Shown in pieces: positions 16,806 through 61,238 of a stretch of DNA of 64,000 nucleotides (positions are counted from its first letter, which is position 1; every line of letters starts with the position of its first letter). The stretch comes from Streptomyces sp. P3 (GTDB lineage: Bacteria > Actinomycetota > Actinomycetes > Streptomycetales > Streptomycetaceae): the NCBI RefSeq assembly GCF_003032475.1, contig NZ_CP028369.1:4216001-4280000 (forward strand). Direction: 5' to 3'. Position numbers and translations under genes: made by a program. The notes under the pieces were generated by a model, which saw only the letters and a program-made list of their open reading frames with translations, was not told where the DNA came from and did no database searches.

Positions 16806-18527
16806 ATGGGCGAGTACGCGGGATCGGTGAACGAGGCGGCGCAGGAAGGCAGTTCACGGCCGAGGGGCGAGCCGGGCAAGGGCGAGCGGGTCGCTGACTG
16901 GGCGGACGAACGGCTCGGGCTGTACACGCTGGCGAAGGCCAACCTGCGCAAGGTGTTCCCGGACCACTGGTCCTTCATGCTGGGCGAGATCTGTCTCTAC
17001 AGCTTCCTGATCCTCATCCTCACCGGCGTCTATCTCACCCTGTTCTTCGAGCCGAGCAGCGCCGAGGTCGTCTACCACGGCTCCTACGCGCCCCTCAACG
17101 GCATCACGATGACGCGGGCGTACGAGTCGACGCTCGACATCAGTTTCGACGTGCGCGGCGGGCTGCTGATCCGGCAGATCCACCACTGGTCGGCGCTGGT
17201 CTTCGTCACCGGCATGCTCGTGCACATGATGCGGGTGTTCTTCACCGGCGCGTTCCGCAAGCCGCGCGAGGTCAACTGGGTGTTCGGCTGGCTGCTGTTG
17301 TTCCTCGGCATCCTTACCGGTCTCACCGGCTACTCGCTCCCCGACGACCTGCTCTCCGGCACCGGGGTGCGGTTCGCCGACGGCGCGATCCTGTCCGTCC
17401 CGATCGTCGGGACGTACCTGTCCTTCTTCCTCTTCGGAGGGGAGTTCCCGGGGCACGACATCATCTCCCGGTTCTACCCGATCCACGTCCTGCTGCTGCC
17501 CGGCATCATGCTGGGGCTGGTCGTCGCCCACCTCATCCTGGTGTTCTTCCACAAGCACACCCAGTACCCCGGACCCGGACGCGACCAGAGGAGCGTCGTC
17601 GGCATGCCGTTCATGCCGGTATACATGGCGAAGGCCGGCGGGTTCTTCTTCCTGGTCTTCGGGGTGCTGGCGGTGATGGGCGGTATCGCGAGCGTCAACC
17701 CGGTGTGGGCGTTCGGACCGTACCGGCCGGACCTGGTGACGACGGGCGCCCAGCCGGACTGGTACCTCGGCTTCTCCGAGGGGCTGATCCGGGTGATGCC
17801 GGGCTGGGAGATCAACGCCTGGGGCCACACCCTGGAACTGGGCGTCCTCATCCCGTTCTCGCTCTTCCCGCTGATCCTGCTCGCCATCGGGGCCTATCCG
17901 TTCGTCGAGGCGTGGATCACCGGCGACAGGCGGGAGCACCACATCCTCGACCGGCCGCGCAACGCCCCCGTGCGCACCGGTCTCGGCGTGGCATGGCTGA
18001 CCCTGTACGCGGTGCTGCTGCTCGGCGGCGGCAACGACATCGTCGCCACGCATCTGCACCTGTCCATCAACGCGATCACCTGGTTCGTGCGGATCTCCGT
18101 GTTCGTCGCCCCGGTCGTCGCCTTCATGGTCACCAAGCGGATCTGTCTCGGACTGCAGCGCCGCGACCGGGACCTGGTGCTGCACGGCCGGGAGACGGGC
18201 ACCATCAGGCGTCTGCCGCACGGCGAGTACATCGAGGTCCACGAACCCCTGAGCCGGGAGCGGCTGTTCACCCTCACCCAGCACGAGCAGCCCGCGCCGT
18301 ACGAGATCGGTCCGCTCGTCGACCACAACGGGGTGCGGCGGCCGGTCACCGTGTCCCAGCGGGTGCGGGCGCGGCTGGCCCGGGCGATGTACGGGGCGGA
18401 CGGCCACATCCCCAAGCCGACGCCCGAGGAGTACCGCGAGCTCACCGGGGGCCACGGAGGTCAGGGGAGTCCTGCGGGCCACGGGGGTCATGAGGGCCAC
18501 GCGGGACATGGGGGAGACGGACACTGA
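16806..18527 (+). CDS. QcrB-type cytochrome b subunit, stand-alone copy
   Basis: This 573-residue multi-pass protein is homologous to the cytochrome b subunit (QcrB) of the actinobacterial bc complex. The four haem ligands appear kept: IHHWSALVFVTGMLVHMMR in helix B and IHVLLLPG/VVAHLILVFFHKH in helix D. The Qo motif reads PDWY, as in actinobacterial QcrB. At least eight hydrophobic helices are visible. The C terminus is a His/Gly-rich tail (GGHGGQGSPAGHGGHEGHAG). No qcrA, qcrC or oxidase gene is adjacent, so this is probably a paralogue of the main qcrCAB copy. ATG 16806 has GGGGAGG upstream. Its last 86 bp overlap the convergent GDSL gene. Confidence 0.87.
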   Translation: MGEYAGSVNEAAQEGSSRPRGEPGKGERVADWADERLGLYTLAKANLRKVFPDHWSFMLGEICLYSFLILILTGVYLTLFFEPSSAEVVYHGSYAPLNGITMTRAYESTLDISFDVRGGLLIRQIHHWSALVFVTGMLVHMMRVFFTGAFRKPREVNWVFGWLLLFLGILTGLTGYSLPDDLLSGTGVRFADGAILSVPIVGTYLSFFLFGGEFPGHDIISRFYPIHVLLLPGIMLGLVVAHLILVFFHKHTQYPGPGRDQRSVVGMPFMPVYMAKAGGFFFLVFGVLAVMGGIASVNPVWAFGPYRPDLVTTGAQPDWYLGFSEGLIRVMPGWEINAWGHTLELGVLIPFSLFPLILLAIGAYPFVEAWITGDRREHHILDRPRNAPVRTGLGVAWLTLYAVLLLGGGNDIVATHLHLSINAITWFVRISVFVAPVVAFMVTKRICLGLQRRDRDLVLHGRETGTIRRLPHGEYIEVHEPLSRERLFTLTQHEQPAPYEIGPLVDHNGVRRPVTVSQRVRARLARAMYGADGHIPKPTPEEYRELTGGHGGQGSPAGHGGHEGHAGHGGDGH

Positions 18528-20970: not shown

Positions 20971-21963
20971 TCAGGCGCGGGCGCGCAGCACCTCCGCCCG
21001 GCAGTCGTCCGGGGCGCCCCACGCCGTACGCAGCGCGCGGGCCTTGGTCAGCCACAGCGACAGGTCGTACTCCGCCGTGTAGCCGATCGCGCCGTGCAGC
21101 TGGAGCGCGGTGCGGGCGGTCGCGTACGCCGCCTCGCAGGCGCTCACCTTCGCCGCGGCCACGTCCGCCGGGGTCATCGTCACGGCTGCGCCCAGCACCA
21201 GGGGACGGGCGAACTCCAGCGCGATCTTGGCGTCCGCCAGCCGGTGCTTGACCGCCTGGAACGACCCGACGGGCACCCCGAACTGGACGCGCTGCCGCAC
21301 ATACCCCACCGTCCGGTCCAGCAGTGCGAGACCCACGCCCAGCGCCTGCGCGGCGGTGGCGAGACGGGCCCACAGCAGGGCGCCCTCCGCGGGCGGATCC
21401 GGGTCGAGGAGTTCACCGCCCGGCAGCAGCCGGGTGAGCCGTCGGGCCGGGTCCAGGGACGCGCGGACCGGGCCGTGTCCCGGGGCGAGCCGCAGCCCGT
21501 CCGCGGCCAGCACCAGCCGTGCCGCCGCCGCGTCGCCGTCCAGGGCGTACCCGCCCTCCCGCGCCAGCGTCGCCATCGACTCGCCCGAGGCCAGGCCCGG
21601 CAGGAACCGCCCGGCCGGCCCCGGAGCGCGCAGCGCCGCGGCCGCGGCCACCGTCTCCACCAGCGGGCCGGGCACCGCATACCGCCCCAACTCCACGAAG
21701 GCGACGGCCAGTTCCACGGGCCGCGGCCCCAGCCCTTCGTACGCCTGCGGGACCGCGAGCGCGAAGACGCCGGCCGCGGCGATCCGCGACCACAGCGCCC
21801 GCCCGGCCGTCCGCTCGCCCCGGCTCCAGTCGCGGATCACGGCCGGTGTGCCGGCCGCGGCCAGCATGGCGTGCAGCGACTCGGCGAAGGCCCGCTGCTC
21901 GGCGTCGAGGAGGAAGCGCGGCGCGGGCGCCTTCGGTGCGGGGACGTGCGGCGAGACGGTCAT
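20971..21963 (-). CDS. fadE32: Acyl-CoA dehydrogenase, small FadE32/FadE33-like subunit
   Basis: This 330-residue protein is a shortened acyl-CoA dehydrogenase, about the size of mycobacterial FadE32 and FadE33 (roughly 320 residues). C-terminal family motifs are visible: RVQFGVPVGSFQAVKHRLAD and QLHGAIGYTAEYDLSLWLTK. It starts at an ATG overlapping the stop of the larger dehydrogenase, and the two are likely to form a heteromeric enzyme, as described for steroid-catabolic FadE pairs. Its expected substrate is a CoA ester late in steroid C/D-ring breakdown. Which of FadE32 or FadE33 it corresponds to is uncertain. Confidence 0.78.
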   Translation of the reverse strand: MTVSPHVPAPKAPAPRFLLDAEQRAFAESLHAMLAAAGTPAVIRDWSRGERTAGRALWSRIAAAGVFALAVPQAYEGLGPRPVELAVAFVELGRYAVPGPLVETVAAAAALRAPGPAGRFLPGLASGESMATLAREGGYALDGDAAAARLVLAADGLRLAPGHGPVRASLDPARRLTRLLPGGELLDPDPPAEGALLWARLATAAQALGVGLALLDRTVGYVRQRVQFGVPVGSFQAVKHRLADAKIALEFARPLVLGAAVTMTPADVAAAKVSACEAAYATARTALQLHGAIGYTAEYDLSLWLTKARALRTAWGAPDDCRAEVLRARA

Positions 21964-23099
21964 CGGCGTCCCCTCGGCAGGCCGAGCAGGTGCTCGGCGA
22001 TGATGTCGCGCTGGATCTCGTTGGTGCCCGCGTAGATCGGCCCGGCGAGAGCGAAGACGTACCGCTGCGACCACTCCTCCTCGGCGAACTCGCCCTCCTC
22101 GCCGAGGAGATCCAGCGCCGTCTCGTGCAGGGCGATGTCGTACTCGGACCAGAAGACCTTGTTCAGGCTCGCCTCGGCGCCCACGCGCTCGCCGCCGAGG
22201 AACCGGGAAGCGGTCGCGAAGGTGGCCAACTGGTAGGCGCGGGCGCCGATCAGCGCGTCCGCGACCTGTGCCCGCGCGCCCTGCGGACCGCCCTGCGCCC
22301 GCCAGAGCGCGTGCAGCCGCTCCGCCGCGGCGAGGAAGCGGCCGGGGGAGCGCAGCGTCAGCCCGCGTTCGTCGGCCGCTGTCGCCATCGCGATCCGCCA
22401 GCCCTGGCCCGGCTCGCCGATCACGTCCTCGTCCGCCACGAACACCTCGTCCAGGAACAGTTCGGCGAACGCCGGCTTCCCGTCGAGACGGCCGATCGGG
22501 CGGACGGTGACGCCCTCGGCCCGCAGGTCGAACATGACGTAGGTGAGCCCCTGATGGGGTTTCGGCGCCTCGGCGTCACTGCGGAACAGACCGAAGGCGC
22601 GGTCGGCGAAGGCCGCGCGCGAGGACCACGTCTTCTGACCGCTGAGCCGCCAGCCGCCGGGGACCCGCACCGCCCGGGCCCGCAACGAGGCCAGGTCCGA
22701 ACCGGCCTCCGGCTCCGACCAGGCCTGCGCCCAGATGGTCTCGCCGCACGCCATCGCGGGCAGCACACGCGCGCGCTGCTGCTCGGTGCCGTGCTCGAAC
22801 AGGGTCGGCGCGAGGAGGCTCACGCCGTTCTGGCCGACCCGGCCCGGCGCGCCCGCCGCGTAGTACTCCTCCTCGAAGAGCAGCCAGCGCATGAGACCGC
22901 ACTCCCGTCCGCCGTACCGCCTCGGCCAGTTCACCGCCGACCAGCCGCCCGAGGCCAGTTCGGCCTCCCAGGCGCGATGCGCGGCGAAGCCCTCGGCGGT
23001 CTCCAGCGAGGGCAGCGGCTCGGGCGGCACATGCGCGTGCAGCCATTCCCGGGCCTCGGCGCGGAACGCCTCGTCGGCGGGGGAGTGCGTGAGATCCAC
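21960..23099 (-). CDS. fadE31: Acyl-CoA dehydrogenase, FadE31-like
   Basis: This 379-residue flavoenzyme oxidises acyl-CoA to enoyl-CoA. Motifs include WAQAWSEPEAGSDLASLRAR for FAD/substrate binding, GQKTWSSRAAFADRAFGLF, and the C-terminal PIYAGTNEIQRDIIAEHLLG. The sequence agrees closely with my recollection of mycobacterial FadE31 of the KstR2 regulon. I use the GTG at 23099 because TAGGAGAG lies 5 nt upstream and the next residues (DLTHSPADEAFRAEAREWL) begin the family. It is first in a two-gene minus-strand operon driven from the KstR2-like box at 23143-23156. Confidence 0.82.
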   Translation of the reverse strand: MDLTHSPADEAFRAEAREWLHAHVPPEPLPSLETAEGFAAHRAWEAELASGGWSAVNWPRRYGGRECGLMRWLLFEEEYYAAGAPGRVGQNGVSLLAPTLFEHGTEQQRARVLPAMACGETIWAQAWSEPEAGSDLASLRARAVRVPGGWRLSGQKTWSSRAAFADRAFGLFRSDAEAPKPHQGLTYVMFDLRAEGVTVRPIGRLDGKPAFAELFLDEVFVADEDVIGEPGQGWRIAMATAADERGLTLRSPGRFLAAAERLHALWRAQGGPQGARAQVADALIGARAYQLATFATASRFLGGERVGAEASLNKVFWSEYDIALHETALDLLGEEGEFAEEEWSQRYVFALAGPIYAGTNEIQRDIIAEHLLGLPRGRR

Positions 23100-23142
23100 G
23101 GGCGCTCTCCTACGGGTGCATTTCGCGGGACCGTTCTTCCCT

Positions 23143-23156
23143 AACAAGTGTTTGGT
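23143..23156. promoter_or_regulatory. KstR2-box-like operator between the fadE and SDR-kstR2-fadA6 operons
   Basis: AACAAGTGTTTGGT matches the mycobacterial KstR2 motif AnCAAGnnCTTGnT at nine of ten fixed positions. It lies 44 bp before the minus-strand fadE operon and 17 bp before the plus-strand SDR-kstR2-fadA6 operon. A -10-like TAGGTT overlaps its right end (23156-23161). The site shares its core with 29387-29400. Confidence 0.65.
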
Positions 23157-23172
23157 AGGTTAGCGTGGCTCC

Positions 23173-23961
23173 ATGACAGGCGTCGAGAGTCCGGCATACG
23201 TGCCCGGTCACGGGCTGCTCAGGGGGCGCACCGCCGTCGTCACGGCCGCGGCCGGGGCCGGCATCGGCCAAGCCGTCGCACGGCGCTTCCTGGAAGAAGG
23301 GGCGCGCGTGCTGATCAGCGACGCCCACGCCCGGCGGCTCAAAGCCCACGAGAGCGCGCTGGCCGAGGAGTTCGGGCCGGCGTCGGTGGCGGCCCTGCCC
23401 TGTGACGTCACCGACGAGGACCAGGTGCGGGCTCTGTTCGACGCCGCCGCCGACGCCCACGGCAGGCTGGACATCGTCGTCAACAACGCCGGCCTCGGCG
23501 GCACCGCCCACCTCGCGGACATGACGGACGACCAGTGGAACCGCGTCCTCGACGTCACACTGAACGGCACCTTCCGCTGCACCCGGGCCGCCCTGCGGCG
23601 GATGCGCGACACCGGCGGCGGCGTCATCGTCAACAACGCCTCCGTCGTCGGCTGGCGCGCCCAGGCCGGGCAGGCGCACTACGCGGCGGCGAAAGCGGGC
23701 GTGATGGCACTGACCCGCTGCGCGGCGATCGAGGCCGCCGCCTGCGGCGTACGGGTCAACGCCGTCTCACCCAGCCTCGCCATGCACCCGCACCTGGTGA
23801 AGGTCACCTCCGCCGAACTGCTGGAGGAGCTCACCGCACGCGAGGCCTTCGGACGGTACGCCGAGCCCTGGGAGGTCGCCAACGTGATCGTGTTCCTGGC
23901 GTCCGGCTACTCCTCGTACATGACCGGCGAAGTGGTCTCCGTCAGCGGCCAGCATCCCTAG
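23173..23961 (+). CDS. Short-chain dehydrogenase/reductase of the steroid C/D-ring cluster
   Basis: This 262-residue SDR has the nucleotide-binding motif TAAAGAGIGQAVARRFLEEG, the NNAG motif, and the catalytic Ser plus YAAAK (HYAAAKAGVMALTRC). It lies directly upstream of kstR2 and fadA6 in one operon. By position it could act as the beta-hydroxyacyl-CoA dehydrogenase of HIP side-chain oxidation (IpdF role), but orthology to IpdF is not certain. There is no clear ribosome-binding site, so the mRNA may have a very short leader. Confidence 0.82.
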   Translation: MTGVESPAYVPGHGLLRGRTAVVTAAAGAGIGQAVARRFLEEGARVLISDAHARRLKAHESALAEEFGPASVAALPCDVTDEDQVRALFDAAADAHGRLDIVVNNAGLGGTAHLADMTDDQWNRVLDVTLNGTFRCTRAALRRMRDTGGGVIVNNASVVGWRAQAGQAHYAAAKAGVMALTRCAAIEAAACGVRVNAVSPSLAMHPHLVKVTSAELLEELTAREAFGRYAEPWEVANVIVFLASGYSSYMTGEVVSVSGQHP

Positions 23962-23976
23962 GACGACAATGGACGC

Positions 23977-24615
23977 GTGCCTCCTACGAAGCCTTCCGCC
24001 CAGCCTGCTGCGAAGAAGAAGCCCCAGGTGACCGCCGCGCCCGCCCGGCGCCGCGAACTCCTCGAGACCGCTGCCGAGGTCTTCGCCGAGCAGGGCTACA
24101 ACGCCACCACCGTGCGCAAGATCGCGGACCACGCGGGCATGCTCGCGGGCAGCCTCTACTACCACTTCGACTCCAAGGAGTCGATGCTCGAGGAGATCCT
24201 GCGCAGCTTCCTCGACGAACTGTGGGACGGCTACGACACCGTCCTGGCGGCCCCGCTGGGCCCCCGCGAGACCCTCGAGGCCCTGGTCACCGAGTCGTTC
24301 AGGGAGATCGACCGGCACCGTGCCGCCGTCGCGATCTACCAGAAGGAGAGCAGGCAGCTGGTGGCGCAGGAACGGTTCGCGTTCCTCGCCGACTCCCAGC
24401 GCAGATTCGAGACGGCGTGGCTCTCCACGCTGGAACGCGGCGTCGCAGCCCGGGTCTTCCGGGCCGATCTCGACGTCCGTCTCACCTACCGGTTCGTCCG
24501 CGACACGGTGTGGGTCGCCGCGTCCTGGTACCGGCCCGGCGGGCAGCACAGCCCGGAGGAGATCGCCCGCCAGTACCTGTCGATGGTGCTGGACGGCATC
24601 GCCGTCCGTGAATAG
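23977..24615 (+). CDS. kstR2: TetR-family repressor KstR2
   Basis: This 212-residue regulator closely resembles mycobacterial KstR2, which represses HIP catabolism genes and releases DNA on binding HIP-CoA. The HTH segment is RRELLETAAEVFAEQGYNAT, then TTVRKIADHAG and LAGSLYYHFDSKESM. The C-terminal block WYRPGGQHSPEEIARQYLSM is shared with KstR2 as I recall it. It starts at GTG 23977, 15 bp after the SDR stop. The KstR2-like boxes at 23143 and 29387 would give autoregulation and control of the whole cluster. Confidence 0.83.
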   Translation: MPPTKPSAQPAAKKKPQVTAAPARRRELLETAAEVFAEQGYNATTVRKIADHAGMLAGSLYYHFDSKESMLEEILRSFLDELWDGYDTVLAAPLGPRETLEALVTESFREIDRHRAAVAIYQKESRQLVAQERFAFLADSQRRFETAWLSTLERGVAARVFRADLDVRLTYRFVRDTVWVAASWYRPGGQHSPEEIARQYLSMVLDGIAVRE

Positions 24616-24650
24616 TCCACTGACGTGCCCCTTTGCATGAGGGAGTTGCC

Positions 24651-25808
<1,158 letters not shown>

Positions 25809-25826
25809 CGGGAAACGCGGGTTCCC

Positions 25827-25854
25827 AGCCGTACGGCGACCCGGCCGTACGGCT
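25827..25854. terminator. Bidirectional hairpin between fadA6 and ipdC
   Basis: AGCCGTACGG (25827-25836) and CCGTACGGCT (25845-25854) form a perfect 10-bp stem with an 8-nt loop, between convergent operons. Confidence 0.65.
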
Positions 25855-25991
25855 GACCCGGCGGCACGGCCGCCCCAGTGGCACGGATCGTGCCGAGCGG
25901 CGAGGCTGTTTGGCGCACCGAGGCGGTCCGAGAGCGGTAAGGCCGTACCGGTAGGTGCGCAGGTGCGGGGGACGGGCCGGCGCGCCGGTCC

Positions 25992-27047
25992 TCACGTCCC
26001 TTTGAGCCGGTCCAGGGCGGCCAGCACGTCCTGCGCCTCCTTCATGATCCGCTCGACCAGCTCCGCGCACGACGGCAGGTCGTCGATCACCCCGGCGACC
26101 TGCCCGGCGGCCATCACGCCCGCCTCCGGGCGGCCCTCCACCATCGCGGACCTCAGCAGCATCGGTGTGTTCGCGGCCAGCAGCACCTGACTCCAGGCGA
26201 GGTCCTTGCCGTGGCGCAGCGCCAGGCCGTCGCGGACCATCTGCCGCCAGGTGAGCCCGGACAGCCTGCGCAGGCCGGCCGCGTGACGCGCTGCCCGCAG
26301 CAACGCCCTGCCCCGGCCCGCGTCCTCCAGGCCGTCTACCAGCGGCGTGCGCAGCATGCGGTGCGGAAGACCGTCCACGGCCCGGGTGACGGTGACGTCC
26401 CGTACCGTCGCCGCCAGATACCGCGCCTTCACCGCCTCGGGGACCGGCGAGTCCGAGGTGAGCAGGAACCGCGTGCCCATCGCGACGCCGGCCGCCCCGT
26501 ACGCCAGCGCGGCCGCCAGACCCCGCCCGTCGAAGAAGCCGCCCGCCGCCACGACGGGGACGTCCACCGCGTCCACCACCTGGGGAAGCAGAACCGTCGT
26601 CGCCACCTCACCGGTGTGGCCGCCGCCCTCGCCGCCCTGCACGATCACCGCGTCCGCGCCCCACGCCGCCACCTTCTCCGCGTGCCGGCGGGCCCCTACG
26701 GACGGGACGACGACGACCCCCGCCTCCTTGAGCCCGGCGATCAGCTCGGCGGAGGGGGCGAGCGCGAACGACGCGACCCGCACCCCCTCGTCGACGATGA
26801 TCCGCACCCGGTCGCCGGCGTCCGCCGCGTCGGCCCGCAGGTTGACGCCGAACGGCGCGTCCGTGCGCGCCTTCACCTCGCGCACCGCCGACCGCAGCTG
26901 GTCGAGGGTCATCGTCGCCGAGGCCAGGACGCCCAGCGCCCCCGCGTCCGCCGTCGCCGACACCAGCCGCGGGCCCGCCACCCATCCCATGCCGGTCTGC
27001 ACGATCGGGTGACGGACCCCGACCAGCCGGGTGAACGCCGTCTCCAT
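25992..27047 (-). CDS. ipdC: IpdC-like flavin oxidoreductase (nitronate monooxygenase family)
   Basis: This 351-residue FMN-dependent TIM-barrel protein resembles 2-nitropropane dioxygenases. Motifs include HPIVQTGMGWVAGPRLVSAT, QGGEGGGHTGEVATTVLLPQ and AAGGFFDGRGLAAALAYGAA with GVAMGTRFL. In mycobacteria the IpdC homologue (Rv3553) is an oxidoreductase acting on a hydroxylated bicyclic CoA ester during HIP catabolism. It is the last gene of the echA20-ipdA-ipdB-ipdC operon and overlaps ipdB by one base (TGATG). Confidence 0.85.
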   Translation of the reverse strand: METAFTRLVGVRHPIVQTGMGWVAGPRLVSATADAGALGVLASATMTLDQLRSAVREVKARTDAPFGVNLRADAADAGDRVRIIVDEGVRVASFALAPSAELIAGLKEAGVVVVPSVGARRHAEKVAAWGADAVIVQGGEGGGHTGEVATTVLLPQVVDAVDVPVVAAGGFFDGRGLAAALAYGAAGVAMGTRFLLTSDSPVPEAVKARYLAATVRDVTVTRAVDGLPHRMLRTPLVDGLEDAGRGRALLRAARHAAGLRRLSGLTWRQMVRDGLALRHGKDLAWSQVLLAANTPMLLRSAMVEGRPEAGVMAAGQVAGVIDDLPSCAELVERIMKEAQDVLAALDRLKGT

Positions 27048-27766
27048 CAGGCCGGCACCTCCCGGCCCCGGGCGCCCTCCGGGTCGATCACCTCACGGAT
27101 CAGCCGCAGCTCCGCCGTGGTCGGCTCACGGGTGTACGGCACCTCGTCCGGGGCGGCCAGCTCGAACCCCGTCGCCTCCCGGACCTGCTCCACGCTCACC
27201 CCGGGGTGCAGCGAGGCCAGCCGCATCGACCGGTCGGGCGTGGCGAAGTCGAAGACACCGAGGTCGGAGACGACCCGCGGGATGCGGTGGTGCCGGGCGC
27301 CGGCCGCACGGTCGTACCCGACGCCGCACACCATGTCGACCTTCGCGACGAAGACCCGCCGGGAGTGCCTCGGGATCCAGTAACTCGTCGGATTGTTCAG
27401 GGTGTTGACGGGCGCGCCGCGCACTCCGAGGAGCTGGCGCACCGGCTTCGCCCAGTCGCCGACGCAGGAGATGTTCTGGTTGCCGTACCGGTCGATCTGG
27501 CTCGCGCCCATCATCACGTGCCGGCGGCCGCCGGTGACCAGCTCCAGATGCTGCCGGTAGGGCAGCCAGCCCTCCGTCGTCCCGTCCGGGCGCACGATCA
27601 GCGCCTCGCCGTCGGTCAGCAGGAGATCCGGCGAGAAGGTGAGCCGGGCGAGCCGGGCGCCCACCGAGGGGATCACCCCCATGGGGCTCGCCAGGATCTC
27701 GCCGCCGCCCCGCCAGGCCTCGGCGCAGGCGATCACGCAGTACTCGGCACGCGTGGTCCCGCTCAT
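27047..27766 (-). CDS. ipdB: IpdB, beta subunit of the COCHEA-CoA ring-cleaving hydrolase
   Basis: This 239-residue protein is a class I CoA-transferase-fold subunit matching IpdB. Visible segments are EYCVIACAEAWRGGGEILAS, LTDGEALIVR, GGRRHVMMGASQIDRYGNQN and GVGYDRAAGARHHRIPRVVS. With IpdA it forms the enzyme that hydrolytically opens the last steroid ring in M. tuberculosis. It starts at ATG 27766, which overlaps the ipdA stop (ATGA), consistent with 1:1 synthesis. Confidence 0.87.
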   Translation of the reverse strand: MSGTTRAEYCVIACAEAWRGGGEILASPMGVIPSVGARLARLTFSPDLLLTDGEALIVRPDGTTEGWLPYRQHLELVTGGRRHVMMGASQIDRYGNQNISCVGDWAKPVRQLLGVRGAPVNTLNNPTSYWIPRHSRRVFVAKVDMVCGVGYDRAAGARHHRIPRVVSDLGVFDFATPDRSMRLASLHPGVSVEQVREATGFELAAPDEVPYTREPTTAELRLIREVIDPEGARGREVPA

Positions 27767-28599
27767 GAGTCCTCCCCGACCGCCGACCGGTACGCCTGTT
27801 CGTCCCCGGCGAGGTAGCGGGCCGCGAACTGTGCCCACGGCGTCGTCGCGTACCGCTTCTGGAACGCCTCGTCCCGGCCGTAGTCGGGAGCGCAGGACGT
27901 GAAGTGCGCCCCGTTCGGGGCCTCCACCACCCCCGTCACGGTGTGCCGCTTGATCAGCAGCGACTGCGGCGGCGCCTCCTTCGTCAGCTCGGCCGTGTCG
28001 ACGACGCGTTCGCAGCTGACGTACGCGGTGTCCGCCGCCTCGCAGAACAGGTCGTCGAAGTACGGGTCCGGACCCAGGTACTGGCCGTTGCCCAGCCGGT
28101 CGGCCCGGTTGACGTGCACCAGCGCCGCGTCCAGCCGCAGGGCGGGCATGGCCACGAACGTCTCCCCGTCCTCGTACGGCGACGTCACCGTCCGCAGACC
28201 GGGGTTGACCCGCATCACGTCCGAGCCGAGGCCCGCCCGCACCGGCAGGAACGGCAGCCGGTGCGCCGCCGCGCGCAGCCCCCACAGGAACATCGCCTCG
28301 TCGACCTCCGTCAGCTCCAGCGCGCCGCGCTCGCGGGCCGCCCGGTAGTGCGGCTCCAGCGGGATCGAGTCCAAGGTGGCGAACGCGGCGACCAGCCTGC
28401 GGATCCGCCCTGCCGCCGCCAGCATCCCGACGTCCGGACCGCCGTACGAGACCACGGTGAGGTCGGTGACCTCCGACCGCAGCAGCGCCCGCACCAGCGC
28501 CATCGGCTTGCGGCGCGAACCCCAGCCGCCGATGCCGAGGGTCATACCGCTCTCCAGGCGGGAGACGGCCTCCTCGGCGCTCATCGTCTTGTCACTCAC
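27763..28599 (-). CDS. ipdA: IpdA, alpha subunit of the COCHEA-CoA ring-cleaving hydrolase
   Basis: This 278-residue CoA-transferase-fold protein aligns from memory with M. tuberculosis IpdA (Rv3551): GMTLGIGGWGSRRKPMALVR, VVSYGGPDVGML, PALRLDAALVHVN, GPDPYFDDLFCEAA and VEAPNGAHFTSCAPDYGRDE. The acidic EVDEAM segment (E98-E101) corresponds to the region holding the catalytic glutamate described for IpdA, with Glu101 the likely residue. I use GTG 28599 because GGGAGGAG lies upstream; it overlaps echA20 by 8 bp. Confidence 0.88.
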   Translation of the reverse strand: MSDKTMSAEEAVSRLESGMTLGIGGWGSRRKPMALVRALLRSEVTDLTVVSYGGPDVGMLAAAGRIRRLVAAFATLDSIPLEPHYRAARERGALELTEVDEAMFLWGLRAAAHRLPFLPVRAGLGSDVMRVNPGLRTVTSPYEDGETFVAMPALRLDAALVHVNRADRLGNGQYLGPDPYFDDLFCEAADTAYVSCERVVDTAELTKEAPPQSLLIKRHTVTGVVEAPNGAHFTSCAPDYGRDEAFQKRYATTPWAQFAARYLAGDEQAYRSAVGEDS

Positions 28600-29365
28600 C
28601 CGAGCTCTCCTCCCGTGCGACCCTGCCGAAGGCGTCCCGGACCCGGTCGGCCACTCCGCCGACGCTCGCCTCGTAGGTGAATCCCTGCTCGAAGCGGTAA
28701 CTGCGACGCACGTCGACCGGATCGATGCCGTTGATGGCGGCCTTGGCCAGACGCACCAGCTCGCCGTCCTTCGCGGCGATCTCGCCGGCCACCTCCAGCG
28801 CGGCCGCGCGCAGTTCACCGGGCGGCGTCACCCGCCACACCGAGCCGTGCCCGTGCAGTTCGGCCGCCGTGACCGTGCGCGAGGTGTAGTAGAGGGCCCG
28901 CAGCAGATGCTGGGGCACCAGCCGGGCCAGATGGGTGGCCGCGCCCAGCGCGCCCCGGTCCAGCTCGGGCAGCCCGAACACGGCGTCCTCGCTCGCCACG
29001 ATCACGTCCGCGTTCCCCGCGAGGCCGACACCGCCGCCCAGACAGAACCCCTGGACGGCCGCCACGACGGGGACCTCGCACTCGTACACCGCCGCGAACG
29101 CCTCGAAGCAGCCGCGGTTGGCGCCGATCAGCGCACCCGCCCCCTGCGCCTGGATCTCCTTGATGTCGACGCCCGCGTTGAAGCCGCGCCCCTCGGCGGC
29201 CAGCACCACGCACCGCGTGGCCGGATCGCGGCCGGCCGCGCGCACGGCGTCGGCCAGCGCGAACCAGCCGTTCACCGGCAGGGCGTTCACCGGCGGGAAG
29301 TCGACCGTGACGAGCGCGATTCCCTTTTCCGCCCCCTTTTCCGGGGACGAGGTGGAGACACCCAT
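28592..29365 (-). CDS. echA20: EchA20-like ring-D hydrolase (crotonase family)
   Basis: This 257-residue crotonase-fold protein matches EchA20 (Rv3550), which opens steroid ring D during HIP-CoA catabolism. Recognisable segments are DFPPVNALPVNGWFALADAV, GRGFNAGVDIKEIQAQGAG with the first oxyanion-hole residues, GFCLGGGVGLAGNADVIVAS with the second, and the C-terminal RRSYRFEQGFTYE. It is the first gene of the echA20-ipdABC operon, 55 bp from the divergent SDR gene, with a KstR2-like palindrome between them. Confidence 0.88.
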   Translation of the reverse strand: MGVSTSSPEKGAEKGIALVTVDFPPVNALPVNGWFALADAVRAAGRDPATRCVVLAAEGRGFNAGVDIKEIQAQGAGALIGANRGCFEAFAAVYECEVPVVAAVQGFCLGGGVGLAGNADVIVASEDAVFGLPELDRGALGAATHLARLVPQHLLRALYYTSRTVTAAELHGHGSVWRVTPPGELRAAALEVAGEIAAKDGELVRLAKAAINGIDPVDVRRSYRFEQGFTYEASVGGVADRVRDAFGRVAREESSGE

Positions 29366-29375
29366 GGAAGCATCA

Positions 29376-29415
29376 GCTACCTTTCCACCAAACGTTTGTT
29401 AGGTGGAAAGGTAGC
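29376..29415. promoter_or_regulatory. 40-bp palindromic operator holding a KstR2-like box
   Basis: Perfect 14-bp arms GCTACCTTTCCACC (29376-29389) and GGTGGAAAGGTAGC (29402-29415) flank 12 bp. The core ACCAAACGTTTGTT (29387-29400) matches the KstR2 motif at eight of ten fixed positions and shares its sequence with the box at 23143-23156. It sits between echA20 and the divergent SDR gene and probably controls both. Confidence 0.68.
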
Positions 29416-29420
29416 AGCCG

Positions 29421-30161
29421 ATGAAGCTGGACGGGAAGGTCGCCGTAGTCACCGGCGGCACCCGCGGAGTGGGCGCCGGGATCGCGCGCTCCCTCACGCG
29501 CGCCGGCGCAGAGGTCGTCGTCTGCGCCCGCAGGCCCCCCGACACCCCGATCCCCGGAACCCGGTTCACATCGCTCGACGTACGGGACGCCGACGCCGTA
29601 CGCACCCTCTTCGCCGGGCTGCCCCGGCTCGACGTCCTCGTCAACAACGCGGGAGGCGCCCCCTACCGGCCACTCGCCGAGGCCGACGCGCACCGCCACA
29701 CGCGCGTGATCGAGCTCAACCTCCTCGCCCCACTCACGGTGTCCCTCGCCGCCCACGACCACCTCAGGCGCGCACGGGGCTCCATCGTGATGATCGGCAG
29801 CGTCAGCGGCACCCGCCCCTCACCCGGCACCGCCGCCTACGGCGCGGCCAAGGCCGGCCTGGAGAACCTCGCACGGTCCATGGCCGTCGAGTGGGCACCG
29901 GAGATCCGCGTGAACACCCTGGTCGTCGGCATGGTCCACACCGAGCGCACCCACCTCCACTACGGCGACGACGACGGCGTCGAGGCCGTCGCCCGCACCG
30001 TCCCCCTGGGCCGCCTCGCCCTCCCCGACGACGTGGGCGACGCGGCCGCCTTCCTTGCCTCCGACGCGGCCGCCTACATCAGCGGAGCCAGCCTCCTCCT
30101 GCACGGCGGAGGCGAACGGCCCGCCTTCCTCGACGCCGCGACCGCCGACAAGACGACCTGA
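29421..30161 (+). CDS. Short-chain dehydrogenase/reductase (Rv3549c-like)
   Basis: This 246-residue SDR has TGGTRGVGAGIARSLTRAG at the cofactor site, VLVNNAGGAP, and the catalytic Ser-Tyr-Lys in GSVSGTRPSPGTAAYGAAKA. It is divergent from echA20, the position of the SDR gene Rv3549c next to echA20 in M. tuberculosis. Its substrate is unknown but probably a hydroxyacyl-CoA of the HIP pathway. An AAGG ribosome-binding site lies inside the right arm of the operator palindrome. Confidence 0.82.
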   Translation: MKLDGKVAVVTGGTRGVGAGIARSLTRAGAEVVVCARRPPDTPIPGTRFTSLDVRDADAVRTLFAGLPRLDVLVNNAGGAPYRPLAEADAHRHTRVIELNLLAPLTVSLAAHDHLRRARGSIVMIGSVSGTRPSPGTAAYGAAKAGLENLARSMAVEWAPEIRVNTLVVGMVHTERTHLHYGDDDGVEAVARTVPLGRLALPDDVGDAAAFLASDAAAYISGASLLLHGGGERPAFLDAATADKTT

Positions 30162-30191
30162 CACGACTCCGACGCGGCCTGAAGGACCGGA

Positions 30192-30245
30192 GAGACGTGA
30201 GAGACGTGAGAGATGTGAGAGACGTGAGAGACGTGAGAGACGTGA
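30192..30245. repeat. Nonamer tandem repeat (6 copies of GAGACGTGA)
   Basis: Six 9-bp units, one with a single mismatch (30210-30218), fill the space between the two SDR genes. The repeat ends next to the GAGGAG ribosome-binding site of the second SDR. Confidence 0.88.
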
Positions 30246-30258
30246 GAGGAGACCCCCG

Positions 30259-31164
30259 ATGAGCGGAATCTGCGACGGCCGGGTCGTGGTCGTCACCGGC
30301 GCCGGACGCGGCCTCGGGCGCGCCCACGCCCTCGCCTTCGCCGCCGAGGGCGCCCGGGTCGTCGTCAACGACCTCGGCGTCGGACTCGACGGCACCCCCG
30401 GCCCCGACAGCCCCGCCCGACAGGTCGCCGACGAGATCCGCGCAGCCGGCGGCACCGCCCTCGCCCACGGCGGCGACATCGCCACCCCCCAAGGCGCCGC
30501 GTCCCTCGTGACGACCGCCCTGCAGACGTACGGCCGGCTCGACACCCTCGTCAACAACGCCGGCTTCCTGCGCGACCGCATGCTCGTCAGCCTCGACGAG
30601 GACGACTGGGACGCCGTCCTGCGCGTCCACCTCAAGGGCCACTTCCTCACCCTCAAGCACGCCGCCGCGCACTGGCGCGCCGAGGCCAAGGCAGGCCGCA
30701 CACCCGCCGCCCGCATCGTCAACACCACGAGCGGGGCGGGACTGCTCGGCTCGCTCGGACAGGGCAACTACAGCGCCGCGAAAGCCGGCATCGTCGGCCT
30801 CACGCTCGTCGCGGCCGCCGAACTCGCCCGCTACGGCGTCCAGGTCAACGCGATCGCGCCCGCCGCCCGCACCCGCATGACGGAACACACCTTCGCCGCC
30901 ACCATGGCCGCCCCCGAGACCGGCTTCGACGCCATGGCCCCCGGCAACGTCTCCCCACTGGTCGTCTGGCTCGGCTCCACCGCCAGCGAAGGCGTCACCG
31001 GACGCGTCTTCGAGACGGAGGGCGGCCGGATCACCGTCATGGAAGGCTGGCGCCCCGGCCCGACAGCGGACACCGCAAGACGCCACAGCCCCGCCGAGGC
31101 GGGAGAGACCGCACGCAAGCTCCTCACCGACGCGCAACCACCCCGCCGCGTCTACGGCGCGTGA
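30259..31164 (+). CDS. Short-chain dehydrogenase/reductase (Rv3548c-like)
   Basis: This 301-residue SDR carries TGAGRGLGRAHALAFAAEGA, VVVNDLGVGLDG, NNAGFLRDRM, and the catalytic set NTTSGAGLLG with NYSAAKAGIVGL. The long C-terminal part ending RVYGA resembles Rv3548c, an SDR linked to the KstR2 regulon, as I recall it. The ATG at 30259 has GAGGAG 6 nt upstream, next to a nonamer repeat. It is the last gene of the steroid-type block. Confidence 0.83.
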   Translation: MSGICDGRVVVVTGAGRGLGRAHALAFAAEGARVVVNDLGVGLDGTPGPDSPARQVADEIRAAGGTALAHGGDIATPQGAASLVTTALQTYGRLDTLVNNAGFLRDRMLVSLDEDDWDAVLRVHLKGHFLTLKHAAAHWRAEAKAGRTPAARIVNTTSGAGLLGSLGQGNYSAAKAGIVGLTLVAAAELARYGVQVNAIAPAARTRMTEHTFAATMAAPETGFDAMAPGNVSPLVVWLGSTASEGVTGRVFETEGGRITVMEGWRPGPTADTARRHSPAEAGETARKLLTDAQPPRRVYGA

Positions 31165-32864: not shown

Positions 32865-35357
32865 ATGTCCGTACTGACGCGCGACGAAGCGCAGAACCGT
32901 GCCAAGCTCATCGACGTCCTCCGCTACACCATCGAGCTCGACCTGACGACCGGCGACGAGACCTTCGAGTCCAGCACCGTCATCCGGTTCGCCGCGCGCA
33001 CCCACGGGGACACCTTCGTCGAGATCAGGCCCGCCGCACTGCACTCCGTCACCCTCGACGGCGAGCCCGTCGACCCCGACACGCTCGACGACAACCGGCT
33101 CCCCCTGACCGGCCTCACCGCCGGCGAACACGAACTGCGCGTCCGCGCCGGCATGCGCTACTCCCGCACCGGCGAGGGCATGCACCGCTTCACCGACCCC
33201 ACCGACGGCGAGACCTACCTCTACACCCAACTGTTCATGGAAGACGTCCAACGCGTCTTCGCCGCCTTCGACCAGCCCGACCTCAAGTCGGTCTTCGAGC
33301 TCACCGTCCAAGCCCCCGAAGGCTGGACCGTCCTCGCCAACGGCATCACCGAACACCTCGGCGACGGCCGCTGGCGGGCCGCCCCCACCCCCCTGATCTC
33401 CACCTACCTCGTCGCCGTCGCCGCCGGACCCTGGCACTCCGTGCGCACCGAACACCGCGGACTCCCCTTCGGCCTCCACTGCCGCCGCTCCCTGGCCCCC
33501 TACCTCGACGCCGACGCCGACGAACTCCTCGACATCACACGCGCCTGCTACGACCGCTACCACGAGAAGTTCGAGGAGCCCTACCCCTTCGACTCCTACG
33601 ACCAGGCGTTCGTCCCCGAGTTCAACGCCGGCGCCATGGAGAACCCCGGCCTCGTCACCTTCCGCGACGAATTCGTCTACCGCTCCGCCGTCACCGACAC
33701 CGAACGCCAGACCCGCGCCATGGTCATCGCCCACGAGATGGCCCACATGTGGTTCGGCGACCTCGTCACCCTCCAATGGTGGGACGACATCTGGCTCAAC
33801 GAGTCCTTCGCCGAATACATGGGCTACCAGACCCTCACCGAAGCCACCCGCTTCCACGGCACCTGGACCGAGTTCGGCGTCGTCCGCAAACCCTGGGGCT
33901 ACGACGCCGACCAGCGCCCCTCCACCCACCCCGTCGCCCCCGAGGACGTCGACGACACCGCCTCCGCACTCCTCAACTTCGACGGCATCTCCTACGCCAA
34001 GGGCGCCTCCGCACTGCGCCAGCTCGTCACCTGGCTCGGCGAGAAGAACTTCCTCGCCGGCATCAACACCCACTTCGCCCGACACCGCTTCGCCAACGCC
34101 ACCCTCGCCGACTTCATCGACTCCCTCGCCGCCCACACCGACCGCGACGTCCACGCCTGGGCCGACGCCTGGCTGCGCACCACCGGCGTGGACACCCTCG
34201 TCCCCACCGTCACCGGCTCCAACGGCGACCACACCCTGACCGTCGACCACCAGGGCAGCCGCCCCCACCGCGTCGGCGTCGGCCTCTACGACCTCGACCT
34301 CGCCGACGAGGACCGCCACCTCACCCTGCGCCGACGCCTCGAGATCGACATCCCGCAGAGCGCACCCGAACCCCTCGGCAAGCGCCCCGCCCTGCTCCTC
34401 CTCAACGACGCCGACCTCACCTACGCCAAGGTCCGCTTCGACCCCGGATCCTTCGACACCGTCCGCGCCCGCCTCAGCGGCCTGCCCGACCCCCTCACCC
34501 GGGCCGTCGTCTGGAACGCCCTGCGCGACGCCGTCCGCGACGGTGAACTCGCCCCCGCCGCCTACCTCGAGACCGCCCGCGCCCACCTCCCGCACGAGAC
34601 CGACCTCGCCCTCGTCCAAGGCGTCCTCACCTTCGCCTCAGGCCAGGCCGCCGACCGCTACGCCACCCCCGAACAGCGCCCCGCCGCGCTCTCCGCGCTC
34701 TCCGCGCTCTGCCGCGACCTCATCCGCCGCACCGAGGACGGCGACCACCCCAGCCTGCGCCTCATCGCCGTACGCCACTTCATCGCCGTCGCCGCCCACC
34801 CCGAAACCATCGCCGCCTGGCTCGCCGACGGCACCGTCCCCGGCGGCCCCGAACTCGACCCCGACCTGCGCTGGCGCGTCCTCGCCCGGCTCGCGGTCCT
34901 CGGCGCCGTCGACGACGCCGACATCGCCGCCGAACTCGACCGCGACCCCTCCGCCACCGGCCGCGAAGGCGCCGCCCGCTGCCGCGCCGCCCTGCCCGAC
35001 GCCGACGCCAAACGCACCGCCTGGGCCGCCATGTTCGAGGACGACGACCTCTCCAACTACCTCTTCACCGCCACCGCCCAGGGCTTCTGGCAGCCCGAAC
35101 AGGCCGACCTCCTCGCCGACTACGTCCCACGCTTCTACCAGGACGCCGTCGCCCTCGCCGCCCGCCGCGGCCCCGCCATCGCGGACGCCGCCGGCCGCTG
35201 GGCCTTCCCCGGCCACGCCGTCGACCCCGACACCCTGCGGCTGGGCGAACAATGCCTCGCCGACGCCCACCCCATCCCGGCCCTGCGCCGCAAACTCGTC
35301 GACCAACTCGACGACCTCACACGCGCGTTGCGCGTACGCGAGGCCCACCAGGCCTGA
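32865..35357 (+). CDS. pepN: Aminopeptidase N (M1 family)
   Basis: This 830-residue cytosolic zinc aminopeptidase removes N-terminal residues from peptides. The substrate-binding GAMEN motif is in NAGAMENPGLVTF and the zinc site HExxH-x18-E is in IAHEMAHMWFGD and LNESFAEYMG. The long C-terminal ERAP1-like domain follows. The ATG at 32865 gives MSVLTRDEAQ, matching streptomycete PepN; another ATG lies 9 nt upstream. A long hairpin terminator follows. Confidence 0.93.
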   Translation: MSVLTRDEAQNRAKLIDVLRYTIELDLTTGDETFESSTVIRFAARTHGDTFVEIRPAALHSVTLDGEPVDPDTLDDNRLPLTGLTAGEHELRVRAGMRYSRTGEGMHRFTDPTDGETYLYTQLFMEDVQRVFAAFDQPDLKSVFELTVQAPEGWTVLANGITEHLGDGRWRAAPTPLISTYLVAVAAGPWHSVRTEHRGLPFGLHCRRSLAPYLDADADELLDITRACYDRYHEKFEEPYPFDSYDQAFVPEFNAGAMENPGLVTFRDEFVYRSAVTDTERQTRAMVIAHEMAHMWFGDLVTLQWWDDIWLNESFAEYMGYQTLTEATRFHGTWTEFGVVRKPWGYDADQRPSTHPVAPEDVDDTASALLNFDGISYAKGASALRQLVTWLGEKNFLAGINTHFARHRFANATLADFIDSLAAHTDRDVHAWADAWLRTTGVDTLVPTVTGSNGDHTLTVDHQGSRPHRVGVGLYDLDLADEDRHLTLRRRLEIDIPQSAPEPLGKRPALLLLNDADLTYAKVRFDPGSFDTVRARLSGLPDPLTRAVVWNALRDAVRDGELAPAAYLETARAHLPHETDLALVQGVLTFASGQAADRYATPEQRPAALSALSALCRDLIRRTEDGDHPSLRLIAVRHFIAVAAHPETIAAWLADGTVPGGPELDPDLRWRVLARLAVLGAVDDADIAAELDRDPSATGREGAARCRAALPDADAKRTAWAAMFEDDDLSNYLFTATAQGFWQPEQADLLADYVPRFYQDAVALAARRGPAIADAAGRWAFPGHAVDPDTLRLGEQCLADAHPIPALRRKLVDQLDDLTRALRVREAHQA

Positions 35358-35371
35358 CACCCCGCGGCCAC

Positions 35372-35431
35372 GGCCCGCCGCGAGGCCCCCCACACCCCAG
35401 GCCGGTGCGTGTGGGGGCCTCGCGGCGGGCC
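35372..35431 (+). terminator. Terminator of pepN
   Basis: An approximately 23-bp stem with one bulged C (35372-35395 pairing with 35409-35431) and a 13-nt loop begins 15 bp after pepN. It is one of the most stable hairpins in the window. Confidence 0.8.
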
Positions 35432-35718
35432 GCCGCAACTCAGGCCGAGCCCCCGACCCGGCCCGCCGCACCATCCCTTCGCACGGCCCCTTCACACGGC
35501 CCCGACCGCCGGGTGCCGACGACCCCGGCACCCGGAGAACACGGCCCCCCGCCACGGCGAAGCACAGCCGCCCGAGGAATCGTTCCCCCGGCACCCAACC
35601 CGGCCGAAGTACCCACTTTCGGGTTCCTGTCACCGGGCTTTCGGGCGCGTCGCCGTCCCACCCGACAAGCTGGACCTCCCCGCTGCGGGCATCCGCCCCC
35701 GGCCCCGGAGGAACCCCC
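35432..35718. other. Non-coding leader of the siderophore-like pair
   Basis: No gene is seen. There is a hairpin with arm CCGGGTGCC (35509-35517 with 35527-35535). I could not find an iron-box-like sequence, although iron control would be expected for siderophore genes. Confidence 0.5.
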
Positions 35719-61223: not shown

Positions 61224-61238
61224 CTGACACCCTGTCAG
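61224..61238. promoter_or_regulatory. CTGACA-CCC-TGTCAG palindrome upstream of the SPW_0924 gene
   Basis: A perfect 6-bp inverted repeat with a 3-nt centre lies 37 bp before the ATG at 61276. It is a candidate operator in the promoter region; no regulator is known. Confidence 0.45.

Follow-up and report, generated by a model that had tools for sequence, protein, structure and literature searches.

The closest described system to the locus analysed here is the KstR2 regulon of Mycobacterium and Rhodococcus (Kendall 2010, PMC3068626; Crowe 2017, PMC5380842). In mycobacteria, KstR2 sites are reported in the gap between echA20 and a short-chain dehydrogenase/reductase (SDR) gene, before kstR2, and in the gap between fadE30 and fadD3 (PMC3068626). 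According to the scheme in the accessible part of PMC5380842, IpdF and IpdC convert 5-OH-HIC-coenzyme A (CoA) to HIEC-CoA, whose ring D is then opened by EchA20 before IpdAB cleaves ring C. A thiolase, for instance FadA6, produces MOODA-CoA, which is oxidised by an acyl-CoA dehydrogenase consisting wholly or partly of FadE32. FadE30 and FadE33 are described as together making up IpdE1-IpdE2, an enzyme that uses 5-OH-HIP-CoA (PMC8708139). The abstract of PMC3068626 calls the regulon highly conserved among actinomycetes, and Streptomyces is not mentioned in the accessible text of that paper. A 2016 survey reports no steroid pathway for 55 of the 57 Streptomyces genomes that it covered (PMC4810484). 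Here, a stretch of 64,000 nucleotides from Streptomyces sp. P3 (the window) was analysed, which carries a KstR2-type gene block at positions 20971-31164 and belongs to a single 9.85-Mb contig.

This block is read, with a probability of roughly 60 %, as a self-contained regulon of the KstR2 type that deals with the two final rings (C and D) of steroid-type molecules. In this reading, it forms the lower half of a pathway that is spread over two loci, acts on HIP-type hydrindanes and is probably fed by the products of other degraders. The genes, their orthology and synteny, and the operator sites were established directly, as were genomic presence, absence and co-occurrence. The block comprises 11 intact genes, with no internal stop in the translated open reading frames, in the order fadE32, fadE31 / ipdF, kstR2, fadA6 / ipdC, ipdB, ipdA, echA20 / two SDR genes, and the window encodes every enzyme of the IpdF-to-FadE32 scheme of PMC5380842. 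Order and strand of the shared genes match the mycobacterial-type loci L113, L114, L117 and L129, in which extra genes are interspersed and the order is fadE33, fadE32, fadE31, fadD3 / fadE30, ipdF...kstR2, fadA6...ipdC, ipdB, ipdA, echA20 / SDR, SDR. The window corresponds to this order minus fadE33, fadD3 and fadE30. Eight characteristic genes (ipdA, ipdB, ipdC, echA20, fadA6, ipdF, fadE31 and fadE32) are thus present in the known order; fadE30, fadE33 and fadD3, which standardly belong inside the regulon, are absent from the block, and for this reason it was filed as a variant of the KstR2 regulon. A chance gathering of generic beta-oxidation genes is excluded by gene order, clades and operators. 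The preliminary description, made from the letters of the sequence, had proposed an eleven-gene KstR2-type C/D-ring block with these coordinates, and this was borne out, as the coordinates are correct and synteny, clades and family cut-offs agree.

Judged from gene spacing, the block appears to form four operons, namely fadE31-fadE32 on the minus strand, ipdF-kstR2-fadA6 on the plus strand, echA20-ipdA-ipdB-ipdC on the minus strand and SDR2-SDR3 on the plus strand. Several adjacent genes overlap by a few bases in the style of coupled operons. The first operon encodes a FadE32 orthologue (20971..21963), an acyl-CoA dehydrogenase of the small-subunit type that serves as MOODA-CoA dehydrogenase in mycobacteria, and a FadE31 orthologue of the large-subunit type (21960..23099, start picked by ribosome-binding site), with an overlap of 4 bases between the two genes. 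In a tree of 58 acyl-CoA dehydrogenases they fall in the FadE31 (100/99) and FadE32 (97/97) clades, in line with their initial naming as FadE31- and FadE32-like; synteny also supports FadE32. The same tree ruled out the window FadE32-like protein as FadE33/IpdE2. The cut-off of the NCBIfam IpdE2 model (450) is missed by this protein (150.2) and by a FadE33 candidate elsewhere in the genome (190.4) alike, and the model therefore does not discriminate FadE32 from FadE33.

The second operon begins with an ipdF-like SDR gene (SDR1, 23173..23961), followed by kstR2, which encodes a TetR-family repressor (23977..24615), and fadA6, which encodes a beta-keto-CoA thiolase (24651..25808). SDR1 passes the NCBIfam equivalog PRK07831 (446.8, cut-off 336) and shares 61-66 % identity with its counterpart at the same position in L113-L117 and L129. 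FadA6 passes PRK07801 (707.2, cut-off 591) and stays under the cut-off of the steroid thiolase model PRK07850 (401.2 vs 515). The top structure match of KstR2 is 2ibd, a 'possible transcriptional regulator' that is presumably from Rhodococcus, with 225 bits compared to 195 bits for two solved structures named KstR2 (4w1u, 4w97). With its conserved syntenic position and 46-56 % identity to the mycobacterial-type orthologues, the gene is a predicted KstR2 orthologue inside the cluster.

In the third operon, ipdC (25992..27047) encodes a FabK-like oxidoreductase with 60-73 % identity to the syntenic ipdC of mycobacterial-type loci. It is followed by ipdB (27047..27766) and ipdA (27763..28599) for the beta and alpha subunits of the COCHEA-CoA hydrolase and by echA20 (28592..29365) for a ring-D hydrolase of the crotonase family. 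The best structure match of both subunits is 6co6 (6co6_A with 338.5 bits for IpdA, 6co6_B with 292 bits for IpdB), which carries the PDB title of a probable CoA-transferase and which we take to be IpdAB; the ipdB start was set at the Met preceding SGTTRAEYC based on the 6co6_B alignment. In the residue alignments (u97154, u97159), EVDEAMF of IpdA aligns to EMDEGMV, where the 6coj chain reads EMDAGMV. The Glu that is replaced by Ala in 6coj, presumably the catalytic residue, is kept in the alpha subunit, as expected for an IpdAB hydrolase and not for a CoA-transferase. EchA20 passes PRK07938 (396.8, cut-off 260) and clusters with EchA20 of other Actinomycetota, away from paralogues (95 SH-aLRT). 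The fourth operon comprises SDR2 (29421..30161; PRK07856, 371.6, cut-off 255) and SDR3 (30259..31164, start picked by ribosome-binding site; subfamily model PRK07791, 488, cut-off 373), which by synteny take the positions of Rv3549c and Rv3548c in the mycobacterial regulon. The PRK models matched by SDR1, FadA6, EchA20, SDR2 and SDR3 are presumably those of the mycobacterial genes; orthology was based on synteny and identity and not on the model names. An affiliation of IpdA, EchA20 and KstR2 outside the steroid families, which would have spoken against the initial proposal, was not observed. For EchA20 this is supported by a tree built with a quick method, for IpdA by pairwise comparison only, and for KstR2 by a quick, outgroup-free tree of 11 rows, all from KstR2-type loci.

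Two predicted operators add to the gene list of the preliminary description. Operator A (CCTAACAAGTGTTTGGTAGG, 23140..23159) lies in the divergent gap between fadE31 and ipdF and differs by one mismatch from the published mycobacterial KstR2 motif AnCAAGnnCTTGnT, while operator B (TCCACCAAACGTTTGTTAGG, 29384..29403), in the divergent gap between echA20 and SDR2, was not found with this motif at one mismatch. A degenerate pattern derived from both sites, allowing two mismatches at most, matched the 9.85-Mb genome in these two gaps and nowhere else, and a reversed-pattern control gave no match. These palindromic sites in divergent gaps, confined to the cluster and similar but not identical to AnCAAGnnCTTGnT, are therefore predicted KstR2 operators. 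Operator B is nested in a longer inverted repeat (29374-29413, GCTACCTTTCCACC ... GGTGGAAAGGTAGC), whose left arm is 95-100 % conserved in 20 loci with an exact core and whose right arm is less conserved. An IUPAC motif and a matrix were derived from the two sites of the window and their relatives, and the matrix detects related sites in mycobacterial-type loci.

A scan of 85 related loci recovered the exact 20-mer of operator A in 77. Site A was readable in 82 of 87 related loci, with 20 of 20 motif positions in 78, 19 in three and 11 in one, the outlier being Streptomyces sp. BHT-5-2, whose operator sits between fadE30 and a hydratase gene. Site B was readable in 85, with 17 or 18 matching positions in 84 and 12 in L128, where the pattern is present elsewhere in the locus than the place scanned. 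The relatives' loci were the best 80 of 549, picked by similarity to the window IpdA (79 of the 80 are titled Streptomyces), and these counts are weighted towards short-form blocks. In position, the Streptomyces sites B and A correspond to the first and the third of the mycobacterial sites named above; since fadE30 and fadD3 are absent, the third mycobacterial-type site falls between fadE31 and ipdF. Two predicted switches would thus serve four operons with eleven genes, and kstR2 would belong to its own regulon.

The genes for the entry into the pathway lie elsewhere in the genome. FadD3, KshA, HsaA and HsaC queries gave no match within the window, and FadE30 and FadE33 queries matched there solely the FadE31 and FadE32 genes, which agrees with the earlier statement that FadD3, FadE30 and the upper-ring genes are outside the window. 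A genome-wide search, which the preliminary description had proposed, revealed a second cluster 1.5 Mb from the block. It holds a FadE30 orthologue, a probable FadE33 and a FadD3-family ligase at 2.681-2.725 Mb, so that an absence of FadD3- and FadE30-type genes from the whole organism is ruled out. This conserved cluster spans 2681439-2732507 of the contig (L154-L156). The acyl-CoA dehydrogenase at 2690074-2691222 falls in the FadE30 clade with a support of 100/100 and branches before all other FadE30s (the fork uniting the rest has 81/37), which identifies it as an old lineage and not a recent move, as judged from the tree. A second dehydrogenase (2712689-2713906) joins the FadE33 clade with 93/90, slightly under the mark of the tool. 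The ligase (2723617-2725248) is 53 % identical to mycobacterial-type FadD3 and passes the NCBIfam model 'FadD3 family acyl-CoA ligase' (792.7 vs 657). The FadE30 orthologue and the FadE33 candidate are hence jointly missing from the block and jointly present in the second locus.

The second locus also encodes a further FadE pair, an SDR, a zinc alcohol dehydrogenase, an MFS transporter, a flavin reductase, an enoyl-CoA hydratase, an FMO-like protein, two Ltp/thiolase-like proteins and a TetR regulator. Another protein resembles NDP-forming acyl-CoA synthetases, under their cut-offs, and one with the OB and zinc domains of ChsH2 reaches 69.6 bits to ChsH2 of 6ok1. For comparison, ten sister genomes were selected in which a long contig carries a distal FadE30 (20 stretches). 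Eight genes of the second locus, including FadE30, are conserved in order in all ten sister loci, the FadE33 candidate occurs in eight, and the ChsH2-like gene in seven, in one of them on the opposite strand.

No KstR2-type operator was found in the second locus by pattern or matrix, and KstR2 control of this cluster was rejected on this basis. Instead, the palindrome CTGACNNNNNGTCAG occurs exactly at ten places in 100 kb, three of them past the ligase. With at most one mismatch it occurs at 17 places compared to 4 and 2 for two scrambled controls, a count that is post hoc because the motif was first spotted by eye in the printed gaps. CTGACNNNNNGTCAG recurs in all ten sister loci, and the second locus likely represents a second regulon. 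A one-mismatch site overlaps the start of the TetR gene, which suggests that this regulator may control itself. In the window, a single exact CTGACNNNNNGTCAG is located at 61224-61238, far from the block, and the four matches with at most one mismatch are likely due to chance (2.6 expected). A near-identical duplicate large catabolic cluster was also observed at 7685001-7745000 and 8195001-8275000 of the contig (L157-L163). Both copies hold FadD3-like ligases, FadE genes, a fadA6-like thiolase gene (54 %) and Ltp-like, P450-like and KshB-like genes. In the tree, the terminal branches leading to their paired dehydrogenases measure about 0-0.06 changes per column.

Searches of the whole genome covered IpdA, FadD3, FadE30, HsaC, KstD, KshA and the operator, and the HsaA query was run on the window. 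The steroid 9-alpha-hydroxylase KshA was not found in the genome, with a best match of 41 bits (28 % over 150 of 385 residues), and the same query recovers KshA with 55-59 % identity in 18 of 199 Streptomyces genomes. HsaC was not found above the cut-off, the only match having 38 % identity and 200.6 bits vs 450. A 3-ketosteroid delta-1-dehydrogenase (KstD) is present (911.6, cut-off 788). The HsaC-like gene at 5.63 Mb lies below the cut-off and is ruled out as a steroid HsaC. At this place (5622001-5642000, L214), a meta-cleavage cluster encodes HsaC- and HsaD-like proteins under the cut-off next to an aromatic-hydroxylase-type monooxygenase, together with proteins that we presume, from gene order, to be HsaE/F/G-like (45-58 %); the cluster probably serves another aromatic substrate.

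IpdA, FadE30, KshA and KstD were counted across genomes. All counts limited by E-values come from the scored part of the first-look candidates. IpdA (E <= 1e-40) was found in 27 of 296 sampled Actinomycetota, including seven of the nine same-genus genomes shown. Among 199 Streptomyces genomes, counting the one analysed here, IpdA (E <= 1e-60) and FadE30 (E <= 1e-100) were each found in 136; 132 carry both, four IpdA alone, four FadE30 alone and 59 neither (Fisher p = 1.5e-40, ignoring shared descent). The four IpdA-only genomes are fragmented (540-1020 contigs). Among those with FadE30 alone, two have a completeness of 78-79 %, a third shows 6 % contamination and the fourth is 99 % complete in 280 contigs. 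KshA (E <= 1e-50) occurs in 18 genomes, all with IpdA and FadE30, and is missing from 118 of the 136 IpdA-positive ones. KstD of the type found here, to which the threshold of E <= 1e-200 is restricted, occurs in 49 genomes, of which 47 are IpdA-positive and two are FadE30-positive genomes with 78-79 % completeness.

FadE30 occurs in two forms, which were separated by hand based on identity to the distal one of the genome analysed here (61-66 % vs 70-100 %). The 61-66 % form is present in 30 genomes and the distal-like form in 116, with both in ten. Also read by hand, the 61-66 % form lies on the IpdA contig in 28 of the 30 genomes and on another contig in two; of the 28, it is within 15 kb of IpdA in 26 and at 28 and 52 kb in the others. 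Of the 18 KshA-bearing genomes, 17 carry the 61-66 % form, whereas the genome analysed here has neither KshA nor that form.

Under the favoured reading of a two-locus HIP-type pathway, in which enzyme steps, operon limits, inducer and substrate are transferred from mycobacteria and rhodococci, a hydrindane acid such as HIP would be imported and converted to its CoA ester by the FadD3-family ligase. Its propionate chain would be shortened with FadE30 and FadE33 from the second locus, under a different operator, and IpdF and IpdC of the block would then yield HIEC-CoA. EchA20 would hydrolyse ring D and IpdAB ring C, FadA6 would release acetyl-CoA, and FadE31/FadE32 would begin the last round of beta-oxidation. 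KstR2, encoded in an operon under its own control, would silence all four operons via the two operators until a HIP-CoA-like ester appears. Together with the distal FadE30, the FadE33 candidate and the FadD3-family ligase, the block could lead from the HIP free acid to central metabolism. Since neither KshA nor HsaC above the cut-off was found, rings A and B are most likely not opened along the known 9,10-seco route, and for this reason growth on HIP-type hydrindanes from other organisms is favoured. The C/D-ring products would most likely be scavenged from other organisms that break down steroids or bile acids; PMC8399759 discusses cross-feeding among bile-acid degraders. The nearest experimental precedent found is a 1977 paper by Hashimoto and Hayakawa (reference 19 of PMC5380842), whose title names metabolites formed from HIP by Streptomyces rubescens.

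Several points weigh against this reading. A KstD, for which a pure scavenger of HIP would have no use, is present, and the ChsH2-like and Ltp-like proteins and the extra FadE pair of the second locus argue for a substrate that bears a C17-type side chain and not just for HIP. As an early-branching lineage of its own, the distal FadE30 may also differ in substrate. The FadE33 assignment is probable, resting on the 93/90 fork while failing the IpdE2 model. The FadD3-family ligase is at its place in only three of the ten sister loci, several of whose stretches end nearby, and two further ligases, at 7.69 and 8.20 Mb, have almost the same identity to FadD3 (51 % and 50 % vs 53 %) and are possible rivals of the one at 2.72 Mb. 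In addition, the co-occurrence counts ignore shared descent. The use of partly degraded steroids or other hydrindanes, as proposed initially, hence fits the absence of KshA and HsaC but is complicated by KstD and the side-chain-type genes, and a secosteroid, a side-chain-retaining hydrindane acid from bile acids or a non-steroid hydrindane may be the substrate. We tentatively suggest, while considering it somewhat doubtful, that about two thirds of streptomycetes share the KstR2 block and the CTGACNNNNNGTCAG cluster for an unnamed hydrindane with a side chain (secosteroid, bile-acid fragment or non-steroid terpenoid), which would make them a large unnoticed guild of C/D-ring degraders without known ring-A/B chemistry.

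Another possibility, which we consider unlikely, is that the two loci degrade a hydrindane that is not a steroid, such as a terpenoid or polyketide from a plant, a fungus or the bacterium itself, for which KstR2 and the ring-cleaving enzymes were kept and entry is provided by FadD3-, FadE30- and FadE33-type enzymes of their own lineages. The frequency of IpdA without KshA in the genus would agree with such a substrate, as would the old lineage of the distal FadE30, which shows no sign of recent transfer, and the separate palindrome and differing gene set of the distal locus. However, IpdA, EchA20, IpdC and FadE31/32 are still close to the steroid enzymes, with 45-73 % identity to the mycobacterial type, the distal locus contains ChsH2-like and Ltp-like parts of the steroid-side-chain type, and KstD of this type is confined to genomes with IpdA or FadE30.

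The same nesting of KstD, which exceeds its cut-off, in pathway-bearing genomes could also mean that whole steroids or secosteroids are degraded, with ring B opened by an enzyme other than KshA and with KstD and the side-chain module as the upper pathway. The ChsH2/Ltp-type proteins and the FMO-like protein of the distal locus would suit this explanation, but it is rather improbable given that KshA is absent from the genome, that the genes resembling HsaC and HsaD at 5.63 Mb are far under the cut-off beside an aromatic-hydroxylase-type monooxygenase, and that steroid pathways are reported in only two of the 57 Streptomyces genomes in the accessible part of PMC4810484. That the block is a decaying leftover of a full cholesterol cluster without catabolic role, to which the lack of fadE30, fadD3 and fadE33 in the block and of KshA in the genome might point, is highly improbable, as the eleven intact frames, the identical operator across many species and the co-occurrence with the distal FadE30 indicate selection on the block.

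Outside the block, a cytochrome b gene lies somewhat upstream in the window (16806-18527), which by its sequence is presumably QcrB-like. At 34543-38690, frames resembling a pyridoxal-phosphate-dependent decarboxylase and a lysine N-hydroxylase follow each other, an arrangement that, judged from motifs, presumably resembles a desferrioxamine-type siderophore system.

The enzymes and the regulator are of known kind. A reduced KstR2 regulon with its entry genes in a second cluster and without KshA, common in Streptomyces, was not found described in the open-access literature searched. While 55 of 57 Streptomyces genomes were counted as non-degraders in the available part of PMC4810484, IpdA occurs in 136 of 199 here, 118 of those without KshA. 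If HIP-type hydrindanes are consumed, one of the best-known genera of soil bacteria would finish the leftovers of steroid and bile-acid degraders. The genes may also explain the 1977 report on metabolites of HIP in Streptomyces rubescens. The reading of the block also predicts the inducer of a KstR2-type regulator, and the second gene cluster is one whose substrate can be sought by feeding.

Among described systems, Saccharopolyspora hirsuta and Steroidobacter denitrificans also have fadD3 outside the C/D cluster, as in the genome analysed here; both are described as steroid degraders, whereas this genome has no KshA (accessible parts of PMC8708139 and PMC5380842). Streptomyces sp. BHT-5-2 carries the same 11 genes with 56-85 % identity and two operators on its replicon p1 (L083), but its block additionally contains fadE30, an enoyl-CoA hydratase gene and fadE33, while fadD3 is still absent from it. 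The replicon with this long form (11.4-25.3 kb of the locus) has a size of 2.8 Mb and is recorded as a plasmid. With the KstR2 regulon of Mycobacterium and Rhodococcus, as far as described in the accessible parts of PMC3068626 and PMC5380842, the window shares the type of regulator, the enzymes from IpdF/IpdC to FadE31/32 with their order and strand, the operators in the echA20/SDR gap and to the left of ipdF, and the position of kstR2 beside fadA6. It differs in comprising 11 genes and two operators compared to 15 genes and three, and in that the fadE30, fadE33 and fadD3 types, which the mycobacterial regulon contains, lie in a second cluster with another palindrome.

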